A DNA stretch of 64,000 bases from an uncultured Sulfurovum sp. (GTDB lineage: Bacteria > Campylobacterota > Campylobacteria > Campylobacterales > Sulfurovaceae): assembly GCA_902727895.1 (NCBI GenBank), contig CACVAP010000039.1, forward strand, positions 1 through 64,000, in the 5' to 3' direction. The translations under genes were made by a program, and so were the position numbers. Positions 6,535-20,071 of the stretch are shown here, piece after piece; the first letter of the stretch is position 1, and every line of letters starts with the position of its first letter. Below the pieces are notes generated by a model. The model did no database searches. It saw only the letters and a program-made list of their open reading frames with translations, and had not been told where the DNA came from.

Positions 6535-7176
6535 CTAAATTTTTGCTGGTAAATTATTTATAAAAATTTGAAAACTACTATTTTTAGACACAATCTTCAT
6601 AAGCTCTTTATATTTTAAAAATGGTCGGCTTAATTTATCATAAGTAGTGTAGTTTTTAATTACTTTTATTTTTTTAGATTCTCTTTGTAAAGCTTCAAAA
6701 CATCCTGCTATCTTTTCACTTTTATTAGATTTATAAATAGGTAAAATCCAACACTCTAAAGAGTGAACTGAAATAGCAAAAATAATTTTTTCTTGACATT
6801 GTACATAAAACTCTTTTTTACTATCAATTTGGGTAACTAACCTTTCTCTAACTCTGTCAATAAGTTCTTCAGTAGAAAGGTTTTGTTGTAGTACACCAAA
6901 ATTAATATGTTCAGAAATATCGGTGTCTATTTGAATAATCACATATTCACTATTTAAAACATCATCTCGAAAACGTTTTTCACTTAAATATTCTACTAGC
7001 ATCTCCCAACCACCAAACTCACCCTCTTTTTGTTTTTGAGTTGTTATATCATAAGGAGGTTGCAGTGGTTGAATCTCTTCATCAAGGTCATCATAATCTT
7101 TATAAAATCCACACAAGATATTTTCAATAACAATTTGGTCGGTAATTCCTTCACAAGCTAAAGCAAATTTTGCCAT
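6535..7176 (-). CDS. TOPRIM-like protein paired with an AAA ATPase (DUF4276-like)
   Basis: A 213-aa protein of unknown substrate that looks like a small TOPRIM nuclease-type domain. CEGITDQ supplies the glutamate of TOPRIM motif 1 (E9) and YVIIQIDTDIS supplies the DxD of motif 2 (D84, D86). HSLECWILP (E141, W143) resembles the conserved late motif of DUF4276-like and RloB-like proteins. Its ATG overlaps the stop of the upstream ATPase by one base (TAATG), a sign of stoichiometric translation. In OLD, PARIS and related defence systems an ABC-class ATPase partners a TOPRIM domain, and this pair may act likewise; that is inference. Codons are more AT-rich than in the downstream methyltransferase gene. 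Confidence 0.7.
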   Translation of the reverse strand: MAKFALACEGITDQIVIENILCGFYKDYDDLDEEIQPLQPPYDITTQKQKEGEFGGWEMLVEYLSEKRFRDDVLNSEYVIIQIDTDISEHINFGVLQQNLSTEELIDRVRERLVTQIDSKKEFYVQCQEKIIFAISVHSLECWILPIYKSNKSEKIAGCFEALQRESKKIKVIKNYTTYDKLSRPFLKYKELMKIVSKNSSFQIFINNLPAKI

Positions 7177-8345
7177 TAAAAGCCTTTTGGTAAGCCACCT
7201 AAATAGCCTCGTATAAATGCTTCTGAAAGATGAAGAGGTTCATCATCTGAAGATTTTGGTTTATTTTCAACTGTTATCTCTTTCATTCGAGTATGACCTT
7301 TTTTATTTCGAGAAACTACAAAAAGTTTCTGCTCTTCATCATTCAAATCAATTCCATCTAAAATAGCAGGATTATGTGTAGTTAAAAATATCTGTTTATC
7401 ATATTTATGAGCTAATTCTGTAAGAATTTTCATCAATTTAGTACATAGTTTAGGGTTAAGGGAAGCATCAATATTATCTATAGCAAAAGCCTTTGGTGTC
7501 TCTTTTGCTACTATAAGCGTAATGTAAAACAAAATAAACAAAAAGCCCTCATTTGCACTTCTTTGAGTAAACTCTCTATATAAATATTTATCTTTGATAA
7601 TTACTTTATCTTCTTGCGAGGAAATATCAGTGGGTATGGTTATGTCTTCAAACCAATTAAAGAGTTTTAATGATTCAATAATGGTATTAATATAACTTTT
7701 ATTTTCGTAGTTATTTACTATTTTCAAAAGCTTTAAAAGACCTTCTCCATTAATTCCTAAAGGTTGAATTTGTCCTTCTTTTTCAAAAATTCTTAATGCT
7801 GTATTTTCAGGAGAATAAATAATGAAATTATTTAGGTATTGAAGAATTTTAAGACCTAATTGTTTAGAAAGAGTATCTTCACCTAATTTAAATACTTTAT
7901 ATAATCTTTCATCTAATGTTTCTGTTGATGAAAAATATTTATTATTTTTTAAAAAATCTAATGTTTCATTGTCAATATTTAAATCTACCTCAATATTTCT
8001 ATTCTGATCAAGTACTCTCCATTGTGAATAAGCCATATTATCATGTTGGAATTCGTAGTTTAAATTTTTGTTTTTTGAAAAAGAAGTTTTAATTAAAATA
8101 TTTTTATCCTTATTCTTTTCCTCAAAAGCACTCCTCATCAATTCAGGTTCAGGAACTCTAAGCCCACGAGAAACCAAAAACTCATTCGCCAACATATTAG
8201 ATTCACTAGCTGAAACAAAAACCAAAGCTTCAAGTAAATTACTTTTTCCCGAACCATTCTCTCCAATAAATAGGTTCACTCTTCCAACTTCTAACTCTAA
8301 GTCGTAGATGGATTTAAAATTTTGAATATGAATTTTTTCTATCAT
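7176..8345 (-). CDS. AAA/ABC-class ATPase (OLD-like, AAA_15/AAA_21 family)
   Basis: A 389-aa stand-alone ATPase of the SMC/ABC-like class found in OLD and other defence systems. The N-terminus IHIQNFKSIYDLELEVG precedes a Walker A motif GENGSGKS (residues 28-35). The insert region is long and poorly conserved. Near residue 262 RSANEGFLFILFY sits where an ABC signature belongs. AFAIDNIDASLNPKL (about 285) is the Walker B/D-loop segment, and IFLTTHNPAIL is the H-switch. There is no C-terminal nuclease domain, consistent with the nuclease-like function being in the next gene. An alternative is a housekeeping ATP-binding protein without a defence role. Confidence 0.85.
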   Translation of the reverse strand: MIEKIHIQNFKSIYDLELEVGRVNLFIGENGSGKSNLLEALVFVSASESNMLANEFLVSRGLRVPEPELMRSAFEEKNKDKNILIKTSFSKNKNLNYEFQHDNMAYSQWRVLDQNRNIEVDLNIDNETLDFLKNNKYFSSTETLDERLYKVFKLGEDTLSKQLGLKILQYLNNFIIYSPENTALRIFEKEGQIQPLGINGEGLLKLLKIVNNYENKSYINTIIESLKLFNWFEDITIPTDISSQEDKVIIKDKYLYREFTQRSANEGFLFILFYITLIVAKETPKAFAIDNIDASLNPKLCTKLMKILTELAHKYDKQIFLTTHNPAILDGIDLNDEEQKLFVVSRNKKGHTRMKEITVENKPKSSDDEPLHLSEAFIRGYLGGLPKGF

Positions 8346-8530: not shown

Positions 8531-9658
8531 GTGCGAGTACAAGTTAATTTATATGAAAATGGGTCATGGAACAAAGAATTGGATGGCTCATTAGATTCAG
8601 CTAATACTTTAATTACCGTCTTTTCTAGCAGTGAATTTAAAAAAAATGAAATAGGTTTTAACGAACTTTGTAAAAAATTCCCAAATGCTATTATTACAGG
8701 TTGTTCTACAGGAGGTGAAATCTATAAAGAGGAACTTCATGATGGCAGCCTTTCCGTTTCCATAACAAAATTTGAAAAGACCAAAATTATAGCTAAGCAT
8801 ATCAAAATAGAGAACGAGAAAGAATCCTTTGACAGAGGATGCAACTTAGTAGAACAATTTGAACAAAAAGGCTTAAAGTCACTCTTCATCTTAAGCGATA
8901 GTATAACTGTAAATAGTTCAAGTTTAGTAGATGGATTTAACAGTGTTTTAAGTAGAAATGTTATTGTCACAGGAGGGATGGCAAGTGATTCTGGTAAATT
9001 TGAAAAAACATGGGTTTTTGTTGATAGAAAAGCAATGCCAAGCCATGTATCTGCCATAGGATTTTATGGTGACAACATTGAAATAAGCTACGCTTCAGAA
9101 GGAGGATGGAATCGTTATGGTCTTGAACGATTAGTCACCTCATCTGATAATAAGAATACCATATATACAGTAGATGACAAACCCATACTCAAACTCTATA
9201 AAGACTACATGGGTGAACATTCAAAAAACCTTCCAAGCTCTGCATTTCAATTTCCTATTTTGGTTATTGATGAAGAAGGAGACACCAAAGTTAGAGCTGT
9301 TTTCGCAGCTAATGAAGAAACACAATCAATTAGTGTTTACAGTGAAATTAAAGAAGGAAATAAAATAATTTTCCTAAAAGGAAGTCCACATTATATTATT
9401 GGAGGAGCCCAACAAGCTGCTCAAAACGTACAATATCCTCCAAATACTTCTGTATTAGCACTGGTCGTTAGCTGTGTAGGACGAAGAGCTGTTTTACAAG
9501 AGCAAACAGAAGATGAAGTAGAAATTATTGAAGAAGTTTTCAATGACAATGTATCCCAAGTTGGATTTTACTCGCATGGAGAACTCTCTCCACAAGCTTC
9601 TGGTAAATGTGGTCTTTTTAACCAAACAATGACACTTTCATTAATTTGGGAATCTTAA
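8531..9658 (+). CDS. FIST N- and C-domain sensory protein
   Basis: FIST proteins are cytoplasmic sensors thought to bind small ligands such as amino acids and to feed signal-transduction partners. The 375-aa protein has a FIST_N region (about residues 25-200: PNAIITGCSTGGEIYKEE, then VTGGMASDSGKF) and a FIST_C region (about 215-350: KPILKLYKDYMGEHSKNLPSSAFQFP, ending near SQVGFYSHGELSP). No output domain is attached. The next gene, 9 bp downstream, is a SpoIIE-type phosphatase, so output is presumably in trans. The GTG start is fixed by the strong GGAGG 5 bp upstream. Confidence 0.9.
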   Translation: MRVQVNLYENGSWNKELDGSLDSANTLITVFSSSEFKKNEIGFNELCKKFPNAIITGCSTGGEIYKEELHDGSLSVSITKFEKTKIIAKHIKIENEKESFDRGCNLVEQFEQKGLKSLFILSDSITVNSSSLVDGFNSVLSRNVIVTGGMASDSGKFEKTWVFVDRKAMPSHVSAIGFYGDNIEISYASEGGWNRYGLERLVTSSDNKNTIYTVDDKPILKLYKDYMGEHSKNLPSSAFQFPILVIDEEGDTKVRAVFAANEETQSISVYSEIKEGNKIIFLKGSPHYIIGGAQQAAQNVQYPPNTSVLALVVSCVGRRAVLQEQTEDEVEIIEEVFNDNVSQVGFYSHGELSPQASGKCGLFNQTMTLSLIWES

Positions 9659-9667
9659 AGAGATTAT

Positions 9668-10672
9668 ATGATGCTAAAAAATAAGTTACTAATCAGACAA
9701 CTTAAAAAAGCCAAAATCACTACCCTAGAAGATATTACTGAAGAAAATTTTGAAAAGCTTTTATCATTAATAGACCGAAGTTATACAAATTATGACGATG
9801 ATAGAAACCTCTATGAAAGTGTATCTGAAATAGCTTCTTCCGAGTTTCAAGCGTTAAATCAAGACTTAAAAGAAAAAGTAACTGAGTTAAAGAAGATCAA
9901 TAATACCATAAAAGACTCTATTGAATATGCATCATTAATGCAACAAGCCATTCTGCCTTCTCTTGATACTTTAGATACATTTTGTCAAGATAATTTTGTT
10001 TGTTGGATACCCAAAGATATTGTTGGGGGAGACATTTATTTAATTAATACTTTAGATAAGGATAGCGTATTAATCATGGTTATTGATGGTGCTGGACATG
10101 GTGTATCAGGTGGATTTTTAACCATGCTAGTTAAAGCTATTGAAGAACAGATTATTGCTAAGATTAAAGATAATACTCTAGCCCCTAGTCCAGCATTAAT
10201 CTTAGAATATTTTAATCATAACCTTAAAATGATGCTTCACCAAGATCAAGAGTCCAAATCAAATAGTGGCTTTGACGGTGGAATACTTTACTATAATAAA
10301 AAAACACATCTCTGTAGATATGCAGGAGCAAAAACTCCTCTATACATCATAAATGATAATGAATTAAAAATTATAAAATCAGATCGAAAAAGTGTCGGAT
10401 TTATACGAACAGATTGTAATCAAAAATATACAGAGTATGACATAAAGATAAAAAAAGATACCAAACTTTACCTAACAACAGATGGTATGTCCGATCAAGA
10501 GGGAGAGAATAATACACGATATGGTATAGAAAGGTTTAAAAATTTTATCTTAGAAAATCAAACTGTTACACTTAGTGAACAGTATGTACAACTTAAAAAA
10601 GACTTCATGAATTTCAAAGGTGACTTCGAACAGAGTGATGACATTACAATTATGGGATTAAGTTTTAAATAG
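9668..10672 (+). CDS. SpoIIE/PP2C-family serine/threonine phosphatase
   Basis: A probable metal-dependent protein phosphatase acting in a partner-switching or FIST-driven pathway. The 334-aa protein has a helical N-terminus and a coiled coil (about 55-90) ending in the signalling-helix motif IEYASLMQQAILPS. The PP2C core follows, with GGDIYLI (about 117), DGAGHGVSGGF (about 139), GFDGGILYY (about 198) and TTDGMSDQEGENN (about 270) carrying the metal-binding aspartates. It is co-transcribed with the FIST gene. Its last 8 bp overlap the end of the convergent HTH gene. No anti-sigma or STAS partner is nearby. Confidence 0.88.
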   Translation: MMLKNKLLIRQLKKAKITTLEDITEENFEKLLSLIDRSYTNYDDDRNLYESVSEIASSEFQALNQDLKEKVTELKKINNTIKDSIEYASLMQQAILPSLDTLDTFCQDNFVCWIPKDIVGGDIYLINTLDKDSVLIMVIDGAGHGVSGGFLTMLVKAIEEQIIAKIKDNTLAPSPALILEYFNHNLKMMLHQDQESKSNSGFDGGILYYNKKTHLCRYAGAKTPLYIINDNELKIIKSDRKSVGFIRTDCNQKYTEYDIKIKKDTKLYLTTDGMSDQEGENNTRYGIERFKNFILENQTVTLSEQYVQLKKDFMNFKGDFEQSDDITIMGLSFK

Positions 10673-11636
10673 AAACCCCAACATAAGACTCTCTAGGCTT
10701 TGAAAGTTTGTGCTGAAGAGACATACTAATATTATTTTTAAAAAGCTTTCCATAAAATGTTTTTTTATTTATTTCTTCATAACTCCACTCTAAACTTTTA
10801 TCATTTTGTATGGCACTTTTTAAAATACCCAGTATCTTTGTTGCATCATTTGGTGCTACATGAATAGGAGCTTCTTTTCCCGAAGTAAAATGCTTGTGCA
10901 ATCTTTCAACAATCGCTGTATTAGTTACTTCTATAAACACGGATTCAAGAGGTGCTTTAAAAAAGACAATTCCTGCTTTTATATTAATAGACGTATACAT
11001 CGTATCAAGTCCATATATTTTTTGTGAATATGAATCAAACAAATGAAGCTGTTTATTATAGTTTTCATCAAAGGTATCATGCATAAGGGAGAGTATTTTT
11101 ACTTTTTGCTCTTTAGTGTAGAAATTTCCTATGGGTGAAAAACAAAAGTTAAGCAATGTCTTGATGCTATACCATTCAGTCGTCTTAAATGAATAATGCA
11201 ACATCTTAGAAATTCGCTCTTGTTTAAAACCTTCTATCTGTTGTGCATCTTGTTTTTTATACACTTTAGGTACGGTAGTGTCTCTATACATAGACCCAGG
11301 AAACTGTGCATGAATAACCAATCGTTCTTTATCTTCATGCTTTAATATGTATTTTAATCCACCTAAATACCCTTCATCTATAAGGCGTATCTCTTCTTTA
11401 GGTACTGTTTTAATAAGTGTGGTAAATTCTTCTTTACACGATATATCCCATATATTCTCTGGATATCTAAAAAATGTTGATATGTGATTAAGCACCTCTT
11501 TAGAGGGATCTTTCTTTGTTGCACCATCTATCCATGAGGTAACAGTACGCCGATCTTTATTGATAATAGATGCAAACTTAGAGATACTAAGTTCCGAGCG
11601 TTTGAAGATTATAGTGATTTTATCAATAGTAGTCAT
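10665..11636 (-). CDS. HTH-containing protein, divergent from the prp operon (putative propionate regulator)
   Basis: I do not recognise the family. The N-terminal 60 residues look like an XRE/lambda-type helix-turn-helix: SISKFASIINKDRRTVTSWIDG, then PSKEVLNHISTFF. The remaining 260 residues show no known enzymatic motif and have no DUF955/IrrE or sigma-54 domain. The gene is divergent from prpE, and the shared 160-bp intergenic region carries four TGTAC boxes, one overlapping a possible -10 for this gene. That suggests a self-regulating controller of propionate use. ATG 11634-11636 is chosen because GGGAAA lies about 5 nt upstream; a TTG at 11646-11648 has no ribosome site. Confidence 0.6.
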   Translation of the reverse strand: MTTIDKITIIFKRSELSISKFASIINKDRRTVTSWIDGATKKDPSKEVLNHISTFFRYPENIWDISCKEEFTTLIKTVPKEEIRLIDEGYLGGLKYILKHEDKERLVIHAQFPGSMYRDTTVPKVYKKQDAQQIEGFKQERISKMLHYSFKTTEWYSIKTLLNFCFSPIGNFYTKEQKVKILSLMHDTFDENYNKQLHLFDSYSQKIYGLDTMYTSINIKAGIVFFKAPLESVFIEVTNTAIVERLHKHFTSGKEAPIHVAPNDATKILGILKSAIQNDKSLEWSYEEINKKTFYGKLFKNNISMSLQHKLSKPRESYVGVSI

Positions 11637-11672
11637 ATCGTTTCCCAATTTTTATAGCTTTATTAACAGTAT

Positions 11673-11738
11673 TGTACAGTTTTTGTACATAAAAAATAGA
11701 CTTGTATTAAAATTGTTTTTTTGTACGTATTTTTGTAC
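11673..11738. promoter_or_regulatory. Four TGTAC boxes in two pairs between the HTH gene and prpE
   Basis: TGTAC, mostly within TTTTGTAC, occurs at 11673-11677, 11684-11688, 11722-11726 and 11734-11738. Members of each pair are 11 and 12 bp apart, about one helical turn, so both boxes of a pair face the same side of the DNA. The right pair ends 24 bp before the prpE -10, in the -35 region. The leftmost box overlaps a minus-strand TACAAT that could be the -10 of the divergent HTH gene. This is the pattern of a dimeric repressor or activator site; the binding protein is inferred to be the neighbouring HTH protein. Confidence 0.55.
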
Positions 11739-11761
11739 CTAGCATTCTCTTCAATCTTGTG

Positions 11762-11767
11762 TATAAT
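11762..11767 (+). promoter_or_regulatory. Predicted -10 box of the prp operon
   Basis: TATAAT preceded by G (GTATAAT) lies 31 bp before the preferred prpE start. Transcription would begin near 11774, leaving a leader of about 24 nt with the AAGGAAAG ribosome site. Confidence 0.6.
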
Positions 11768-11797
11768 GAAAATTAGATTAAGATGAAGGAAAGAACT

Positions 11798-13708
11798 ATG
11801 GGTGAAATTTATGACAAAGTATATAAAGAATCAATAGACAATCCAGAGAAATTCTGGGCTGAGGCTTCAACAAAAGTACACTGGTATAACAAGTGGGATA
11901 GAGTACTAGACGTGGTTGATGGGCATTATCGTTGGTTTGTTGGTGGGACGATGAACACTTGTTACAATGCCGTTGACTTACACATAGAGAATGGACATGG
12001 TGATGATATTGCTATTATCTATGACTCACCTGTAACCAACACAAAAAAGACTTATACGTACAATGAATTACGTGATAGAGTAGCTAAAACAGCTGGGATG
12101 CTATCTTCTCATGGTGTGGTAAAAGGTAACAGAGTAATCATCTACATGCCGATGATTCCTGAAGCTGCCATCGCAATGTTAGCTTGTGCGAGAATCGGTG
12201 CGATTCATTCAGTCGTATTTGGTGGGTTTGCAGCACATGAATTGGCAACACGTATTGATGATGCTAGACCAAAAGTAGTCATGAGTGCAAGTTGTGGTGT
12301 AGAAGTTTCTAAAGTTATTAACTATAAACCTCTATTAGACGAAGCAATTGAGCAATCTACCTATAAACCTGTAAAATGTTTTATTCACCAAAGAGAAGAA
12401 GCTGTAGCAGACTTAGTAGAAGGTAGAGACTTTGATTGGGCAGAAGAAGAAGCTAAGTCAGAACTTGCTGCCTGTGTTCCTGTTGATGCGATTGATCCAC
12501 TTTATATCCTTTATACCTCAGGAACAACTGGTAAACCAAAAGGTGTTATTAGAAGTAATGGTGGACACTCTGTAGCCATGAAATGGTCTATGGACAACAT
12601 CTATAACGCTAGGGCTGGTGATGTTTTCTGGGCTGCAAGTGATGTTGGTTGGGTTGTTGGACACTCATACATTGTCTATGCACCACTTATGAATGGTTGT
12701 AGTACCATTATCTACGAAGGTAAACCTGTACGTACACCAGATGCTGGAGCATTTTGGAGAGTATGTGAAGAGTACAAAGTAAATGTACTTTTCTCTGCAC
12801 CTACAGCATTTAGAGCCATCCGTAAAGAAGACCCTGAGGCTGAGTTCCTTAAACAATACGACTTAAGCTCTGTAAAAAATATTTTCATGGCTGGTGAAAG
12901 ATGTGATACAGCAACTTACGAGTGGACTAAAAGTGTAACTGGTAAAGAAGTTATTGATCACTGGTGGCAAACTGAAACAGGTTGGGCTATTGCTGCAAAC
13001 CCTACGGGTCTTGACCCGATGACAGTTCATGCAGGAAGCCCTACTAAACCAATGCCAGGATTTAACCTTCAAGCACTGGATGCTGACGGTAAACAATGTG
13101 AACCAGGAGTACTAGGTAACCTTGTACTTAAATTACCATTACCACCAAGTTGTCTTATGGGAATTTGGGAAGATGAAGCAAGATACCAAAACTCATATCT
13201 TAAATTTTATGAAGGTTACTACCTTACTGGAGATTCAGGATACATCGACAAAGACGGTTATGTATGGGTAATGGGTCGTATGGACGGTGTCATTAATGTT
13301 GCTGGACATAGGCTCTCAACAGGGGAGATGGAAGAAATCGCAGGTACCCATCCAGATGTTGCTGAGGCTGCTGTTATTGGTGTGGATGATGAACTTAAAG
13401 GTGAATCACCTATGGGCTTTGTGGTACTTAAATCAGGTGCAAACAGAGACCATGCTGAAGTTGTCGCTGAGCTTGTTCAGTTAATACGTAAACAAATTGG
13501 ACCAGTAGCTGCCTTTAAGATAGCAACCGTTGTACAAAGACTACCAAAAACAAGAAGTGGTAAAATACTTAGAGGAACCATGCGAAGTATCGCAGATGGT
13601 AAAGAGTGGAATATGCCTTCAACCATAGAAGATGAAAGTGTACTACCAGAAATGACCGAAGCGATTAACGCTTTAGGATACCCAAAACCAAAAAACAAGG
13701 ACATATAA
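11798..13708 (+). CDS. prpE: Propionate-CoA ligase
   Basis: Activates propionate to propionyl-CoA through an acyl-adenylate, feeding the methylcitrate cycle. The 636-aa protein has the ANL-family motifs LYILYTSGTTGKPKG (about 240), the WWQTETGW substrate-pocket segment (about 395) and the C-terminal TRSGKILRG with the catalytic, acetylatable lysine. It could be confused with acetyl-CoA synthetase, but the prpBC-acnD-prpF neighbours and features such as FWAASDVGWVVGHSYIVYAPL favour PrpE. An upstream in-frame ATG at 11783 exists; the start at 11798 is preferred because AAGGAAAG sits just before it and MGEIYDKVYKESI aligns with known PrpE N-termini. Confidence 0.88.
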   Translation: MGEIYDKVYKESIDNPEKFWAEASTKVHWYNKWDRVLDVVDGHYRWFVGGTMNTCYNAVDLHIENGHGDDIAIIYDSPVTNTKKTYTYNELRDRVAKTAGMLSSHGVVKGNRVIIYMPMIPEAAIAMLACARIGAIHSVVFGGFAAHELATRIDDARPKVVMSASCGVEVSKVINYKPLLDEAIEQSTYKPVKCFIHQREEAVADLVEGRDFDWAEEEAKSELAACVPVDAIDPLYILYTSGTTGKPKGVIRSNGGHSVAMKWSMDNIYNARAGDVFWAASDVGWVVGHSYIVYAPLMNGCSTIIYEGKPVRTPDAGAFWRVCEEYKVNVLFSAPTAFRAIRKEDPEAEFLKQYDLSSVKNIFMAGERCDTATYEWTKSVTGKEVIDHWWQTETGWAIAANPTGLDPMTVHAGSPTKPMPGFNLQALDADGKQCEPGVLGNLVLKLPLPPSCLMGIWEDEARYQNSYLKFYEGYYLTGDSGYIDKDGYVWVMGRMDGVINVAGHRLSTGEMEEIAGTHPDVAEAAVIGVDDELKGESPMGFVVLKSGANRDHAEVVAELVQLIRKQIGPVAAFKIATVVQRLPKTRSGKILRGTMRSIADGKEWNMPSTIEDESVLPEMTEAINALGYPKPKNKDI

Positions 13709-13709
13709 T

Positions 13710-14582
13710 ATGAGCGCAGGAAGAAAATTTAGAGAAGCATTAAAAGAAAACGGACCATTACAAATCGTAGGTGTTATTAACGCATACTCAGCTATTCAAG
13801 CAGAAGCAACAGGAGCAAAAGCTCTTTACATTTCAGGTGCTGGTGTAGCAAATGCAAGTTACGGTTTACCAGATATTGGTATGACAATGTTAGAAGATGT
13901 ATGTATTGACATTAGAAGAATTACAGGTCGTTGTGATCTTCCATTACTTGTAGATGCAGATACTGGTTGGGGTGGAGCATTTAACATTTCTAGAACTGTT
14001 AAAGAGATGACAAAAGCAGGTGCTGCTGGATGTCACATAGAAGATCAAGTTGCACAAAAAAGATGTGGACATAGACCAAACAAAGAACTGGTAAGCATTG
14101 AAGAAATGTGTGACCGTATTAAAGCTGCAGTTTCTGGTAAAACAGACCCTGAGTTTGTTGTTATGGCACGTACTGACGCACATGCAAGTGAAGGTCAAGA
14201 AGCAGCATTAAAAAGAGCAAAAGCTTACGTAGAAGCTGGAGCTGACATGATTTTTGCTGAAGCAATTCACACACTTGAAGAGTACAAAGCATTTACAGCT
14301 GAAATCACTGTACCAGTACTTGCAAACATTACTGAATTTGGTGCAACACCAATGTTTACAAAAGATGAACTTGGTAGCGTAGGTATTGACATGGTTCTTT
14401 ACCCACTTTCAGGATTTAGAGCAATGAACAAAGCTGCACTTGATGTATTTAAATCAATTATTGATGAAGGTTCACAAGCAAGCACTTTACCAATTATGCA
14501 AACAAGAATGGAGCTTTACGATATGTTAGATTACCATTCATACGAAGAGAAGTTAGACGCACTTTTTGCAAAAAGTAAATAA
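13710..14582 (+). CDS. prpB: 2-Methylisocitrate lyase
   Basis: Splits 2-methylisocitrate to pyruvate and succinate, the last step of the methylcitrate cycle. The 290-aa protein has the isocitrate-lyase/PEP-mutase fold motifs: LYISGAGVANASYGLPD (about 33), LVDADTGWGG with metal-binding aspartates (about 81) and the catalytic KRCGHR loop (about 118). Its length matches PrpB and is far shorter than isocitrate lyase. It starts one base after the prpE stop, so the two are translationally linked. Confidence 0.95.
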   Translation: MSAGRKFREALKENGPLQIVGVINAYSAIQAEATGAKALYISGAGVANASYGLPDIGMTMLEDVCIDIRRITGRCDLPLLVDADTGWGGAFNISRTVKEMTKAGAAGCHIEDQVAQKRCGHRPNKELVSIEEMCDRIKAAVSGKTDPEFVVMARTDAHASEGQEAALKRAKAYVEAGADMIFAEAIHTLEEYKAFTAEITVPVLANITEFGATPMFTKDELGSVGIDMVLYPLSGFRAMNKAALDVFKSIIDEGSQASTLPIMQTRMELYDMLDYHSYEEKLDALFAKSK

Positions 14583-14594
14583 AAAGGATAAACG

Positions 14595-15749
14595 ATGAGT
14601 ACTGAAACAAAATCAGGATTTAAGCCTAAAAAATCTGTTGCCCTCTCAGGGGTAACAGCAGGAAACACTGCTCTTTGTACGGTTGGTAAAACAGGAAATG
14701 ATTTACACTACCGTGGCTATGATATTTTAGAATTTGCTACCAAAGCAGAGTTTGAAGAAATTGCACACCTTTTAATTCATGAAAAACTTCCAAACAAAGC
14801 TGAATTGGCTGTTTACAAAGAGAAATTAAAATCATACCGTGATATTCCACAAGGTGTTAAAAATGTTTTAGAACAACTTCCAAAAGATACCCACCCTATG
14901 GATGTTATGCGAACAGGTTGTTCAGCACTTGGATGTATTGAGCCTGAAGCACTTGACCATAACAAAGCTGATGCACAAGATCTTGTAGACAGACTTATGG
15001 CGTCATTTGGTTCTATTTTACTTTACTGGTACCACTTCTCACATAATGACAAGCGTATCGAACTTATGACAGATGATGACTCTATTGGTGGACATTTCTT
15101 ACACCTTCTTCATGGTGAAAAACCAAAAGAATCATGGATAAAAGCAATGCATGTTTCATTGATTCTTTATGCAGAGCATGAGTTTAATGCTTCTACTTTT
15201 GCAGCACGTGTTGTTGCTGGTACAGAATCAGACATGTATTCAGCTGTAACAGGTGCGATTGGTGCATTACGTGGACCTAAGCATGGTGGAGCAAACGAAG
15301 AAGCGTTTAGAATTCAACAACGTTACTCTTCAGCTGATGAAGCTGAATCAGACATCAAAGAACGTATGGCACGTAAAGAAATTGTTATTGGGTTTGGACA
15401 TCCTGTTTACACAACGTCTGATCCTAGAAACGTTGTGATTAAAGAGGTAGCAAGAGAACTTTCCCAAGAAAATGGAACACCATTAATGTATGATGTTGCT
15501 TCACGTCTTGAAGAGGTAATGTGGGATGCTAAGAAAATGTTTCCTAACCTTGACTGGTTCTCTGCTGTATCATACAACCAAATGGACGTACCAACGGACA
15601 TGTTTACACCACTGTTTATTATTTCACGTGTATCTGGTTGGGGTTCACATGTTATTGAGCAAAGAGAAGATGGTAAGATTATTCGTCCTTCGGCAGAATA
15701 TATAGGACCTGAAAACTTAGTATTTGTTCCATTAGAAGAAAGAGAATAA
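14595..15749 (+). CDS. prpC: 2-Methylcitrate synthase
   Basis: Condenses propionyl-CoA with oxaloacetate to 2-methylcitrate. The 384-aa protein belongs to the citrate synthase family. Catalytic-region motifs are [15 protein letters not shown] (about 225), [13 protein letters not shown] (about 265) and the aspartate-bearing [15 protein letters not shown] (about 318). The short length and [10 protein letters not shown] start are typical of PrpC rather than of the longer type II citrate synthases. It is 12 bp downstream of prpB with an AAGGATAAACG leader. Confidence 0.93.
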
Positions 15750-15751
15750 GA

Positions 15752-18343
15752 ATGATCGGTAAGAATTATTTAAAAAAACTTGAGGGTACAGACCTCGAGT
15801 TTTATGATGTAAAAATGGCTGTTGAAGAGATTAGTACTGGTTCATTTGAAAAACTAAACTATATTTCAAGAGTATTGGCAGAAAATTTACTTAGAAAGTG
15901 TCCCAGTGAAGATTTAGAAGATTCTCTTATTCAATTAATTGAAAAAAGAACTGACAAAGATTTCCCTTGGTATCCAAGTAGAGTTGTAACGCATGATATT
16001 CTTGGACTTACAGCACTGGTAGATTTAGCTGGTTTAAGAGAAGCAATTGCAGAAGAAGGTGGGGATCCTGAAAAGGTTAACCCTGTTGTTCCTACACAAT
16101 TAATTGTCGATCACTCTTTAGCAGTTGAGTGTGGTGGATCTGAGCCTGATGCATTCCAAAACAATAGAGATATTGAAGACAGAAGAAATGCAGACAGATT
16201 CCACTTTATTAACTGGACAAAAGAAGCATTTGACAATGTAGATGTTATTCCTCCAGGGAATGGTATTATGCACCAAATTAACTTAGAGAAAATGTCTCCT
16301 GTAGTTCATAGTATTGATGGAATTGCCTCTCCTGATACCTTGGTTGGAACAGATTCACATACCCCTCATGTTGATGCTCTTGGTGTTTATGCACTTGGTG
16401 TTGGTGGATTAGAAGCTGAAAATGTAATGCTTGGTAACCCTTCATTTATGAGAGTTCCTGAAACTGTTGGTGTTGAGATTGTAGGTGTTAGAGCTGAAGG
16501 TATTACGGCAACTGATATTGCCTTAGCAATGACATCATTTTTGAGAGAATCAAAAGTTATCTCTGCTTATTTAGAATTCAATGGTTCAGGTTTAGAGTAT
16601 TTAACTCTAGGTGATAGAGCTACCATTTCTAACATGACGCCTGAATATGGTGCATCTGCTGCTATGTTTAGTATTGATGATCATACTTTAGATTATTTAA
16701 CATTAACAGGACGTGAAAGCGCTCAGGTTAAATTGGTAGAAACGTATGCAAAAGCAAATGGTTTATGGGTTACAGATTTAGCAAATGCTACCTATACTAG
16801 AGAATTAACATTTGATTTATCAACTGTTTCAAGATCTTTAGCTGGTCCTTCTAAACCTCATCACCTAGTTCCAACTAGCACTTTAAAAGAAGAAGGTCTT
16901 ATTAAGAACTTTACTCTTGATGGTGATAAAATTCCAGATGGTGGAATTTTAATTGCAGCTATTACTTCATGTACGAATACTTCTAACCCAAGAAATGTTG
17001 TTGCTGCTGGACTATTGGCTAAAAAAGCGAATGAATTAGGATTAACAAGAAAACCATGGGTTAAGTCATCATTAGCACCAGGTTCTAAAGTTGTTGAAAC
17101 CTATTTAAAAGATGCAAATCTTCTTCCAGAACTTGAAAATCTAGGATTTGGTATTGTTGGTTTTGCTTGTACTACTTGTAATGGTATGTCAGGTGCATTA
17201 GATCCAAAAATTCAAAAAGAAGTGGTTGATAATGATATTTATTCAACAGCTGTATTATCTGGAAACAGAAACTTTGATGGTCGAATCCACCCTTATGTAA
17301 AAGAAGCATTTTTAGCATCACCTCCATTGGTTGTAGCCTATGCATTAGCAGGTACGATTAGATTTGATATTGAAACAGATTCTTTAGGGAATGACAAAGA
17401 TGGTAACCCAATTACATTAAAAGATTTATGGCCTACTGATGCTGAAATTGATAAAGTAGTTGCAGCATCTGTTAGACCTGAAATGTTTGATGAAATTTAT
17501 GATCCAATGTTTGCAAAAAGTGCTTTTGATGATGTTAAAATATCTCCATTTTATAACTGGAATAGACAGAGTACCTATATCAATAAACCACCATACTGGG
17601 AAGATGCATTTGTTGGTAAACCAGCACTTAAAAACATGCTTCCATTAGGTGTATTCCCTGATAACATTACAACGGATCACTTGTCTCCTTCAAATGCAAT
17701 TTTACCAACCTCTGCTGCTGGTGAGTATTGTCTTAAAATGGGTTTACCTCCTGAAGATTTAAACTCTTATGCAACGCATAGAGGGGATCACTATACAGCA
17801 CAACGTGCAACATTGGCAAATCCAAAACTATTTAATGAGATGGTTAAAGATGCTAATGGTGAAACTAAACAAGGTTCTTTAACTACGATTATGCCAGAAG
17901 GTAAAGAGTCTAGAATGTGGGAAGCTATTGAGACCTATATGGATAGAAAGCAACCACTTATCATTGTTGCTGGAACTAACTATGGTCAAGGATCGTCAAG
18001 AGACTGGGCTGCCAAAGGTGTTAGACTTGCAGGTGTAGAAGTTTTAGTTGCAGAATCAATTGAACGAATTCATAGAACCAACTTAGTTGGAATGGGTGTT
18101 TTACCATTACAATTTAAAGATGGAGATACAAGACATACGTATGGTATTGTTGGATCTGAATCTTATGAAGTTTCTGGAGAAATTATCGCTAGAGGTGATT
18201 TAAACGTAATCATGACAAGAGCTAATGGTGAAGTTGTAAATATTCCTGTTACTTGTAGATTGGATACTTCGGCTGAAGTTGAAGTTTATAACGCTGGTGG
18301 AATCTTACAAAAATTTGCTAAAGACTTTGTAGCAAACAAATAA
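15752..18343 (+). CDS. acnD: Fe/S-dependent 2-methylcitrate dehydratase AcnD
   Basis: Dehydrates 2-methylcitrate to 2-methyl-trans-aconitate with a 4Fe-4S cluster; PrpF then isomerises the product. The 863-aa length matches AcnD. Cluster cysteines are visible as AAITSCTNTSNP and GFACTTCNGMSG (about residues 408 and 474). The C-terminal swivel domain carries NYGQGSSRDWAAKG and is preceded by DNITTDHLSPSNAI. AcnD plus PrpF replaces the cofactor-free PrpD, which is absent here. It starts 2 bp after the prpC stop. Codon choice is richer in TTA/ATT than in prpE-prpC. Confidence 0.93.
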   Translation: MIGKNYLKKLEGTDLEFYDVKMAVEEISTGSFEKLNYISRVLAENLLRKCPSEDLEDSLIQLIEKRTDKDFPWYPSRVVTHDILGLTALVDLAGLREAIAEEGGDPEKVNPVVPTQLIVDHSLAVECGGSEPDAFQNNRDIEDRRNADRFHFINWTKEAFDNVDVIPPGNGIMHQINLEKMSPVVHSIDGIASPDTLVGTDSHTPHVDALGVYALGVGGLEAENVMLGNPSFMRVPETVGVEIVGVRAEGITATDIALAMTSFLRESKVISAYLEFNGSGLEYLTLGDRATISNMTPEYGASAAMFSIDDHTLDYLTLTGRESAQVKLVETYAKANGLWVTDLANATYTRELTFDLSTVSRSLAGPSKPHHLVPTSTLKEEGLIKNFTLDGDKIPDGGILIAAITSCTNTSNPRNVVAAGLLAKKANELGLTRKPWVKSSLAPGSKVVETYLKDANLLPELENLGFGIVGFACTTCNGMSGALDPKIQKEVVDNDIYSTAVLSGNRNFDGRIHPYVKEAFLASPPLVVAYALAGTIRFDIETDSLGNDKDGNPITLKDLWPTDAEIDKVVAASVRPEMFDEIYDPMFAKSAFDDVKISPFYNWNRQSTYINKPPYWEDAFVGKPALKNMLPLGVFPDNITTDHLSPSNAILPTSAAGEYCLKMGLPPEDLNSYATHRGDHYTAQRATLANPKLFNEMVKDANGETKQGSLTTIMPEGKESRMWEAIETYMDRKQPLIIVAGTNYGQGSSRDWAAKGVRLAGVEVLVAESIERIHRTNLVGMGVLPLQFKDGDTRHTYGIVGSESYEVSGEIIARGDLNVIMTRANGEVVNIPVTCRLDTSAEVEVYNAGGILQKFAKDFVANK

Positions 18344-18363
18344 TCATTACCATTTACAAAACG

Positions 18364-18425
18364 CTTTTAGGGCATTGCCCTAAAAGTATTTAAAAGAGAT
18401 TAATCAATTTCTTCTCAATACTTTT
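18364..18425 (+). promoter_or_regulatory. Two alternative hairpins between acnD and prpF
   Basis: CTTTTAGGGC-ATT-GCCCTAAAAG (18364-18386) is a perfect 10-bp hairpin with a 3-nt loop but no following T-tract. AAAAGTATT in its right flank (18382-18390) can instead pair with AATACTTTT at 18417-18425. The two structures share bases and exclude each other. This could be an RNA-stability element, a partial terminator or an attenuator that lowers prpF expression relative to acnD. Confidence 0.5.
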
Positions 18426-18450
18426 AAAATAAAAATTCAAGGAAAAAAAT

Positions 18451-19629
18451 ATGTCATATACCCCACAAATACAAATACCTGCTACCTACATGCGTGGTGG
18501 AACAAGCAAAGGTGTATTTTTTAATAAAACAGACATACCCGAAGCTATTTTAGCTGACCAAGCAAAGCTTGATAAGTTACTACTACGTGTTATTGGTAGT
18601 CCTGATCCTTACAATAAACAAATTGATGGATTAGGTAATGCTTCTTCAAGTACAAGTAAAACTGTTATGGTGAGTAAAAGTACAAAAGAAGACCATGACG
18701 TTGACTATGAGTTTGGACAAGTGGCTATTGACAGACCTTTTGTAGATTGGAGTGGTAACTGTGGTAACCTTACGGGAGCTGTAGGTTCATTTGCTATAAA
18801 AAGTGGTTTACTTGATGATGATCGATTAATCGAAGATGGAATCATAGAAGTACGTATTTGGCAAGTTAACATTCAAAAAACCATCATTGCTCATGTGCCT
18901 ATGGCAGGTGGTGTGGTTCGTGAAATGGGTGATTTTATTCTTGATGGTGTGGCATTTCCTGCTGCTGAAGTTAAAATAGAATTTGTATCTCCTATTGATC
19001 CTGATGAAACACTTTTCCCTACAGGAAACTTAGTAGATGATTTAGAAGTGCCAGGTGTTGGTACATTTAAAGCAACCATGATTACAGCTGGAATCCCTAC
19101 TATCTTTTTAAATGCAGAAGCTATTGATTATATTGGTACAGAACTTCAAGGTGACATCAACTCTGATGCTAAAGCCTTAGAAATGTTTGAAACCATTCGT
19201 GCTTACGGTGCTATTAAAATGGGTCTTATTACAGATTTGAAAGAAGCTGAAACCAGACAGCATACACCAAAAGTTGCTTTTGTAGCCAACTCAAAAAGCT
19301 ACACTTCTTCAAGTGGTGCTGAAGTAAATGCTGATGATATTGACCTAAATGTAAGAGCTTTATCTATGGGACAACTTCACCATGCGATGATGGGTACAGC
19401 TTCTGTAGCCATTGCCGTAGCAGCATGTATCCCCGGAACACTTGTCAGTGAAGCAGCTGGTGGAAGTGAACGTGAAAGTCTTGTCTTTGGACACCCCTCA
19501 GGTACACTAAGAGTTGGTGCAACTATCAACAAAGAAGGTGATGATTACATCATTGAAAAAGTAGGTATGAGTCGAAGTGCTCGAATTATTATGGAAGGGA
19601 AAGTTCATGTTCCTTCTGATACAGTATAA
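18451..19629 (+). CDS. prpF: 2-Methylaconitate cis-trans isomerase
   Basis: Converts the AcnD product 2-methyl-trans-aconitate to the cis isomer, which aconitase hydrates to 2-methylisocitrate. The 392-aa protein has the PrpF family start YMRGGTSKGVFF (about residue 12). Further signature blocks are IDGLGNASSSTSKTVMVS (about 58), DWSGNCGNLTGAVGSFAI (about 95) and a late GHPSGTLRVGATI (about 350). It is separated from acnD by 107 bp with hairpins but is on the same strand and followed by a strong terminator, so it closes the operon. Confidence 0.93.
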   Translation: MSYTPQIQIPATYMRGGTSKGVFFNKTDIPEAILADQAKLDKLLLRVIGSPDPYNKQIDGLGNASSSTSKTVMVSKSTKEDHDVDYEFGQVAIDRPFVDWSGNCGNLTGAVGSFAIKSGLLDDDRLIEDGIIEVRIWQVNIQKTIIAHVPMAGGVVREMGDFILDGVAFPAAEVKIEFVSPIDPDETLFPTGNLVDDLEVPGVGTFKATMITAGIPTIFLNAEAIDYIGTELQGDINSDAKALEMFETIRAYGAIKMGLITDLKEAETRQHTPKVAFVANSKSYTSSSGAEVNADDIDLNVRALSMGQLHHAMMGTASVAIAVAACIPGTLVSEAAGGSERESLVFGHPSGTLRVGATINKEGDDYIIEKVGMSRSARIIMEGKVHVPSDTV

Positions 19630-19652
19630 GACTTTTAAAGTAATTCTCTTTT

Positions 19653-19677
19653 CATTTCCACATCTAATGTGGAAATG
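19653..19677. terminator. Bidirectional terminator between prpF and the thioredoxin-like gene
   Basis: CATTTCCACAT-CTA-ATGTGGAAATG is a perfect 11-bp hairpin between two convergent genes. It follows the prpF stop by 24 bp and ends one base before the thioredoxin-like stop codon. T/A-rich flanks on each side suit both strands. Confidence 0.7.
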
Positions 19678-19678
19678 T

Positions 19679-20071
19679 CTATTCTTTAACCAATACTCCA
19701 TACTTTTCAAGCAATTCCATAATTTCTTCAGGTAATAAATAACCCTCATGTCGTCCTATCTCTTTTCCCTCTTCATTCCAAAAAACAGAAGTTGGTAATA
19801 CTTGAACATTTGAATTAATACCACCCAATATATCTTTGTCAGTGTTAATATAATAAATTGGTGTTTTAGGATATTTCTCTTTTATCTCTTTCAAATAAGG
19901 AGCCATGTGTTCACACCAAATACATTCTGTTTTCCCAAATTGAACCATTAAAGGTTTACCCTTAGGAATGTCAACAACATTTACTTTTGGAATATCTCCA
20001 AAGTCGTAAGCGAACGCTGATATACTGAGCAATAGAAGAAGTATTAATTTTTTACATCGCATCTGAAACAT
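19679..20071 (-). CDS. Periplasmic thioredoxin-like protein
   Basis: A secreted thiol-disulfide protein of SoxW/thioredoxin type. The 130-aa chain has a signal peptide (KKLILLLLLSISAFA) and one thioredoxin fold with active-site CIWCEHM (about residues 50-56, CxxC) and the cis-proline segment VLPTSVFW (about 91). Its start lies inside the 3' end of the upstream tolC-like gene (20-bp overlap), so translation is coupled. ATG at 20069-20071 is preferred, with AGGA about 11 nt upstream; a second ATG at 20060-20062 has no ribosome site. Confidence 0.82.
   Translation of the reverse strand: MFQMRCKKLILLLLLSISAFAYDFGDIPKVNVVDIPKGKPLMVQFGKTECIWCEHMAPYLKEIKEKYPKTPIYYINTDKDILGGINSNVQVLPTSVFWNEEGKEIGRHEGYLLPEEIMELLEKYGVLVKE

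Follow-up and report, generated by a model that had tools for sequence, protein, structure and literature searches.

The gene lying divergent to the prp operon in the DNA of an uncultured Sulfurovum sp. very probably encodes a dedicated local regulator of that operon. As judged from its sequence, the protein belongs to an undescribed family and would act through TGTAC boxes in the gap between the two. The stretch of 64,000 nucleotides that was analysed is called the window here. The regulator gene (10665..11636, minus strand) is an open reading frame (ORF) of 323 aa from the ATG at 11636, and an alternative start, TTG at 11648, would give 327 aa. To the right of the gap, the operon order on the plus strand is prpE-prpB-prpC-acnD-prpF. 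The assignment of prpE (propionate--CoA ligase, 11798..13708) is based on its ORF and family-model scores; propionate--CoA ligase models gave the top scores, yet these were below the cut-offs of the models. The scores were above the cut-offs for prpB (methylisocitrate lyase, 13710..14582, TIGR02317), prpC (2-methylcitrate synthase, 14595..15749, NF009006), acnD (the Fe/S-dependent dehydratase of the methylcitrate cycle, 15752..18343, TIGR02333) and prpF (2-methylaconitate isomerase, 18451..19629, TIGR02334). The prpE ORF as called starts at ATG 11783, and ATG 11798 is its Met 6. The start is probably ATG 11798, and it was placed there because an AAGGAA ribosome site lies upstream and the homologs start at this position. 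Therefore, the regulator-prpE gap spans 11637-11797 (161 bp). The ORF, the gap limits and the neighbours agree with the initial annotation, in which a divergent 323-aa HTH protein shared this gap with prpE. The usual propionate regulators had been described there as absent, and this was also borne out. The sigma-54 PrpR domain (PF06506, PrpR_N) was detected in none of 10 genomes (the window's own and nine related ones) with a positive E. coli control, and the regulator-prp island contains no GntR gene.

The coupling of the regulator to the prp genes extends over several families. At 69 of 70 loci, prpE or prpB is the divergent neighbour of the regulator, and the remaining locus is truncated by the end of its contig. 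Among 398 Campylobacterales genomes, 69 carry the regulator with prpB, one carries it with a fragmentary prpB, 10 have prpB alone, and 318 have neither. The pairing is kept when acnD and prpF are swapped for prpD, and also when the first gene of the operon changes between prpE and prpB, the latter being first in Arcobacteraceae. The 10 genomes with prpB alone indicate that the regulator is not required for the pathway. Some Helicobacter and a single Arcobacteraceae genus are among the carriers of prp operons without the regulator (L210-L216); at L213, prpB has transporter-like ORFs on its divergent side. Conversely, three Helicobacter loci (L141, L146 and L154) have the regulator, and the flanks retrieved around it contain no prp genes. 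The regulator may have been either relocated or retargeted there.

In the window's genome, the regulator, the prp operon and a small thioredoxin-like gene form a stretch of ~9.4 kb (10674..20058) that is missing in the nearest relative. In the sister species G123, the flanks align up to 10673 and from 20059, with about 14 bases between them, and the two flanking genes that were compared share 91-92% identity with those of this species. Since the flanks are joined at the empty site, the regulator and the operon can be regarded as one 9.4-kb block. Of 150 sampled genomes of the window's family, the window's own is the only one with the regulator and the only one with prpF. A gain of the block in the window's genome is the preferred explanation; loss in the sisters is less likely because the block is rare in the family. 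Contamination of the contig was considered, as the genome is a MAG with 4% contamination, and was rejected for this contig because the flanking genes share 91-92% identity with genomes of the same genus. Two genes, for a FIST-domain sensor and then a SpoIIE-type phosphatase (8531-10672, plus strand), are convergent with the regulator gene and overlap its stop; the pair is kept in the nearest relative and missing at the same site in two others. Further left, an AAA_21 ATPase and DUF4276-like pair (6535-8345, minus strand) matches the candidate defence system PDC-M31A/B, and three same-genus relatives do not have this stretch of ~1.9 kb at the corresponding site.

The gap contains four TGTAC boxes, and their positions and the pair spacings of 11 and 12 bp in the initial annotation were confirmed. 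The outer pair consists of two TGTACA boxes at 11673..11678 and 11684..11689, 11 bp apart and located at -101 and -90 from the inferred prpE start site. The inner pair, both on the plus strand, consists of box 3 (TGTACG, TGTAC at 11722..11726, -52), which most relatives do not have, and box 4 (TGTACC, TGTAC at 11734..11738, -40 to -36), whose position is the best conserved across relatives. The successive spacings across the gap are thus 11, 38 and 12 bp. Dinucleotide-preserving shuffles of the 162-base region contained 0.30 sites on average, and none of 20,000 reached four; a box pair 11 bp apart appeared in 1 of 20,000. Over the whole window, TGTAC is mildly over-represented (157 observed against 122 expected). 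Therefore, single boxes are uninformative, and it is the cluster and its conservation that count. The boxes had also been placed at the two promoters. The outer pair overlaps, through box 1, a putative TACAAT -10 of the regulator's own promoter (11671..11676, minus strand), and box 4 lies at -40 to -36 of the prp promoter, for which a putative TATAAT -10 was recognised at 11762..11767 (plus strand). Both promoters were read from consensus, and the -35 element that was supposed to adjoin the inner pair has no good counterpart; a promoter scan found no sigma-70 -35/-10 pair at the prp promoter.

The boxes are conserved together with the regulator. TGTAC/GTACA sites are present in 60 of 60 gaps whose regulator homologs are more than 50% identical, and the gaps other than that of the window hold 166 sites against 22 expected. 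The box at -40/-41 from the prp -10 anchor is found in 10 of 11 near relatives and in 11 of 11 members of a second clade, with further box positions near -71, -89 to -91, -100, -109 and -118 to -121. The 11-bp pair is kept in all eleven near sequences. A box pair overlapping a TACAAT-type -10 on the minus strand also occurs in many Arcobacteraceae gaps, and the -40 box of this group is often degenerate (TATACA) or missing. The box spacing fits a period of ~10.1 bp, with 1 of 2,086 random sets equally good and a weaker fit at 10.5 bp; this helical phasing is only supporting evidence because the clusters were grouped by eye, the period was freely fitted and the sequences are related. It had been stated in advance that loss of the boxes in relatives keeping the gene pair would speak against the proposal. 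Such loss is seen among the more distant loci, where 8 of 9 below 50% identity (Campylobacter and Helicobacter) retain the pair and not the exact TGTACA, and it is not seen in the 60 gaps above 50% identity, which all keep TGTAC. Several Campylobacter and Helicobacter loci have TGTTCA-like boxes instead, and the HTH motif KDRRT is invariant in 93 homologs.

The relatives that retain the HTH protein without the boxes, together with the mild enrichment of TGTAC over the window, could mean that the boxes serve another, perhaps global, regulator and that the HTH protein is a passenger. This reading is very improbable. Seven prp promoters without the regulator were compared, and TGTACA is present in one and missing in six, against 60 of 60 gaps with TGTAC where the regulator is present. 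Furthermore, the full TGTACAN5TGTACA doublets inspected elsewhere (in G474, G234 and G495) lie inside ORFs, as does one partial pair of the window's own genome. Therefore, no wider regulon was found. Two features of a local prp regulator, linkage to the prp genes and conserved operator-like sites, were observed. The proposal that an unrecognised HTH protein acts on the TGTAC boxes as the local prp controller is strongly supported by synteny, co-occurrence, fixed box positions and the empty site in the sister species.

The regulator and 50 aligned relatives have no convincing sequence family match in Pfam, NCBIfam or the PDB. A PDB sequence search with the regulator returned a designed peptide as the sole match, and a Pfam ORC4_C match (E 0.022) was dismissed as chance. 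Clear homologs in the 398 Campylobacterales genomes number 70 including the window's own, and the other 69 are 42-70% identical to it. One genome per species was scanned for 84,980 species; an alignment-based search gave 81 relatives, and a single-sequence search of GTDB contigs gave none. The 80 of these 81 that were listed belong to Sulfurospirillum, Arcobacter and its kin, Campylobacter (including C. coli), Helicobacter and MAGs. Plasmid and phage collections contained no homologs, and the window's own genome has a single copy. In the regulator tree, the window's protein falls among Sulfurospirillum-type sequences. A distant paralog at another locus (L072:3545-4570; 29% identity, HHalign probability 98.8) has a poorly conserved HTH; it occurs in a different taxonomic family of Campylobacterales and is remote from prp genes. 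As no family model reaches the regulator, its proposed status as a new, hitherto undescribed family is supported. For A. butzleri, C. coli, H. bizzozeronii and Sulfurospirillum, the pathway genes are covered in the literature, and no passage found there names a regulator; an earlier description elsewhere is possible.

For the understanding of the domain architecture, AlphaFold2 models were used (pLDDT 86.6 for the whole protein; pLDDT 89.9 and pTM 0.88 for residues 78-323). The model has an XRE-type HTH at residues ~1-70, an alpha/beta domain resembling the phospholipase D (PLD) superfamily at ~78-270, and then C-terminal helices. The N-terminal region aligns with lambda/XRE-type HTHs such as SinR, P22 c2 and DdrO (Z about 7-8), and the best Pfam HTH_3 E value of 0.0015 is sub-threshold. 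The PLD-type fold was recovered with both models. When the Foldseek candidates of the C-terminal domain were re-ranked by VIA-align, essentially every one of the 50 rows was a PLD-superfamily chain (vaccinia F13 Z 9.6, NucT 9.5, TrmBL2 9.3, SauUSI 9.2 and TrmB 8.4). The best VIA Z is 9.7, and such values exceed what the tool regards as common by a modest margin only. It is the uniformity of this list that supports the assignment to the PLD superfamily. Plain Foldseek with the whole model placed TrmBL2 alone below 1e-3 and gave no significant match with the isolated C-terminal domain; aminotransferase matches of the isolated domain (TM about 0.17) were discarded as noise. The predicted N-terminal fold is in line with the XRE-like HTH of the initial description; the PLD-superfamily fold predicted for the 260-aa C-terminal region, described there as unrecognised, had been missed. 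Most PLD folds are enzymes, and the domain might be a nuclease or phosphodiesterase; it might also be an oligomerisation module only, as TrmBL2 has no counterpart of TrmB's sugar-binding subdomain (PMC4877046). Either function without a sensor role is improbable. The HxKx4D catalytic motif of phospholipase D (HKD) enzymes is present in 0 of 93 homologs, which argues against an enzyme. About fifty positions show conservation of 97% or more in these homologs, and many of these are polar or basic residues of the second domain. The many invariant polar residues (R118, D119, R141, E154, N192, K195, D201, K227, E236 and H259) suggest a binding pocket.

Several known regulators resemble parts of this protein. 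In the archaeal TrmB and TrmBL2, a PLD-superfamily-type fold (VIA Z 7.9-9.3, with predicted models) that likewise does not contain HxKx4D comes after the DNA-binding domain. However, the regulator is bacterial, has an XRE-type HTH and is 8-16% identical to them. TrmB differs in its extended winged HTH and in an additional subdomain that binds sugar (PMC4877046); a Pfam search with 51 members of the regulator family gave no TrmB match, and an extended winged HTH of the TrmB type was not found. The PrpR of Mycobacterium tuberculosis (MtPrpR; ScfR/RamB type, 486 aa), an activator of methylcitrate genes (PMC6765138), also has an N-terminal HTH and a large second region. In contrast, the regulator has 323 aa and a second domain predicted to be PLD-like, and the DUF955/IrrE-like and DUF2083 domains of ScfR gave no Pfam match in 51 members and no PDB sequence match. 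The C-X2-C-X4-C iron-sulphur motif of MtPrpR (PMC6765138) is absent from the 93 homologs. MtPrpR is also missing from the fold-match lists, and this carries no weight against kinship. The HTH fold of XRE/Cro-C1 regulators (SinR, P22 c2) matches residues 1-70, and the attached domain differs. The sigma-54 PrpR of Salmonella and E. coli is likewise a divergent local prp regulator. However, it belongs to a different protein family, and the prp promoter of the window has a putative sigma-70-type -10. By the features tested, the regulator resembles TrmB in one domain fold only and lies outside the MtPrpR and sigma-54 PrpR families.

As a mechanism, dimers or higher oligomers of the regulator would bind the palindromic TGTACA boxes via the HTH. 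The box at about -40 would recruit RNA polymerase to the adjacent prp promoter, whose -10 is perfect and which lacks a real -35, and repression of the regulator gene would come from the outer pair, which overlaps the putative -10 of that gene. Activation of prp is fairly probable. Campylobacterota promoters generally have weak -35 elements, and the absent -35 is therefore only a mild argument for activation. The same regulator could instead be a repressor of prp that occupies the boxes near -40 and those farther upstream and is released by a metabolite. Many XRE proteins are repressors, polymerase can also be blocked from a site beside the -35, a repression loop could form between the helically spaced boxes of the two promoters, and one Sulfurospirillum-type clade has boxes at -6 and +6. 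We consider repression rather unlikely, since the prp promoter has no recognisable -35 and the boxes of most clades reach upstream to about -121 and do not cover -10/+1, which fits activation better.

In the preferred reading, the non-catalytic PLD-like domain would bind a pathway metabolite, which would switch the DNA-binding state. This ligand may most simply be 2-methylcitrate, a tentative choice made because it is the product of PrpC in all operon variants and has been suggested to be the co-activator of Corynebacterium glutamicum PrpR (PMC6765138). Propionyl-CoA is nearly as likely. A signal of propionyl-CoA or another short acyl-CoA, as in mycobacterial PrpR, is conceivable since MtPrpR, a prp activator with an HTH and a novel domain, binds CoA derivatives (PMC6765138). 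However, no sequence or motif link between the regulator and MtPrpR was found, and 2-methylcitrate is equally common to all operon variants; an acyl-CoA signal is therefore somewhat doubtful.

Propionate-pathway genes are found in many Campylobacterales, and they set C. coli apart from C. jejuni (PMC4219013). The regulator family is a very probable local controller of these genes, and it also occurs in cultured groups (Arcobacteraceae and Sulfurospirillum). It combines a clear operator-like array with a predicted XRE-plus-PLD-fold architecture that matches no known family. Tentatively, it may represent a separate solution to methylcitrate control, in which an XRE HTH joined to a degenerate PLD-fold sensor of 2-methylcitrate or 2-methylisocitrate would assemble on helically spaced TGTACA boxes and turn prp on and its own gene off. 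Within Campylobacterales, C. coli and enterohepatic Helicobacter included, this system may have spread together with the operon through both inheritance and transfer. The regulator is also a candidate part for a propionate/2-methylcitrate biosensor.
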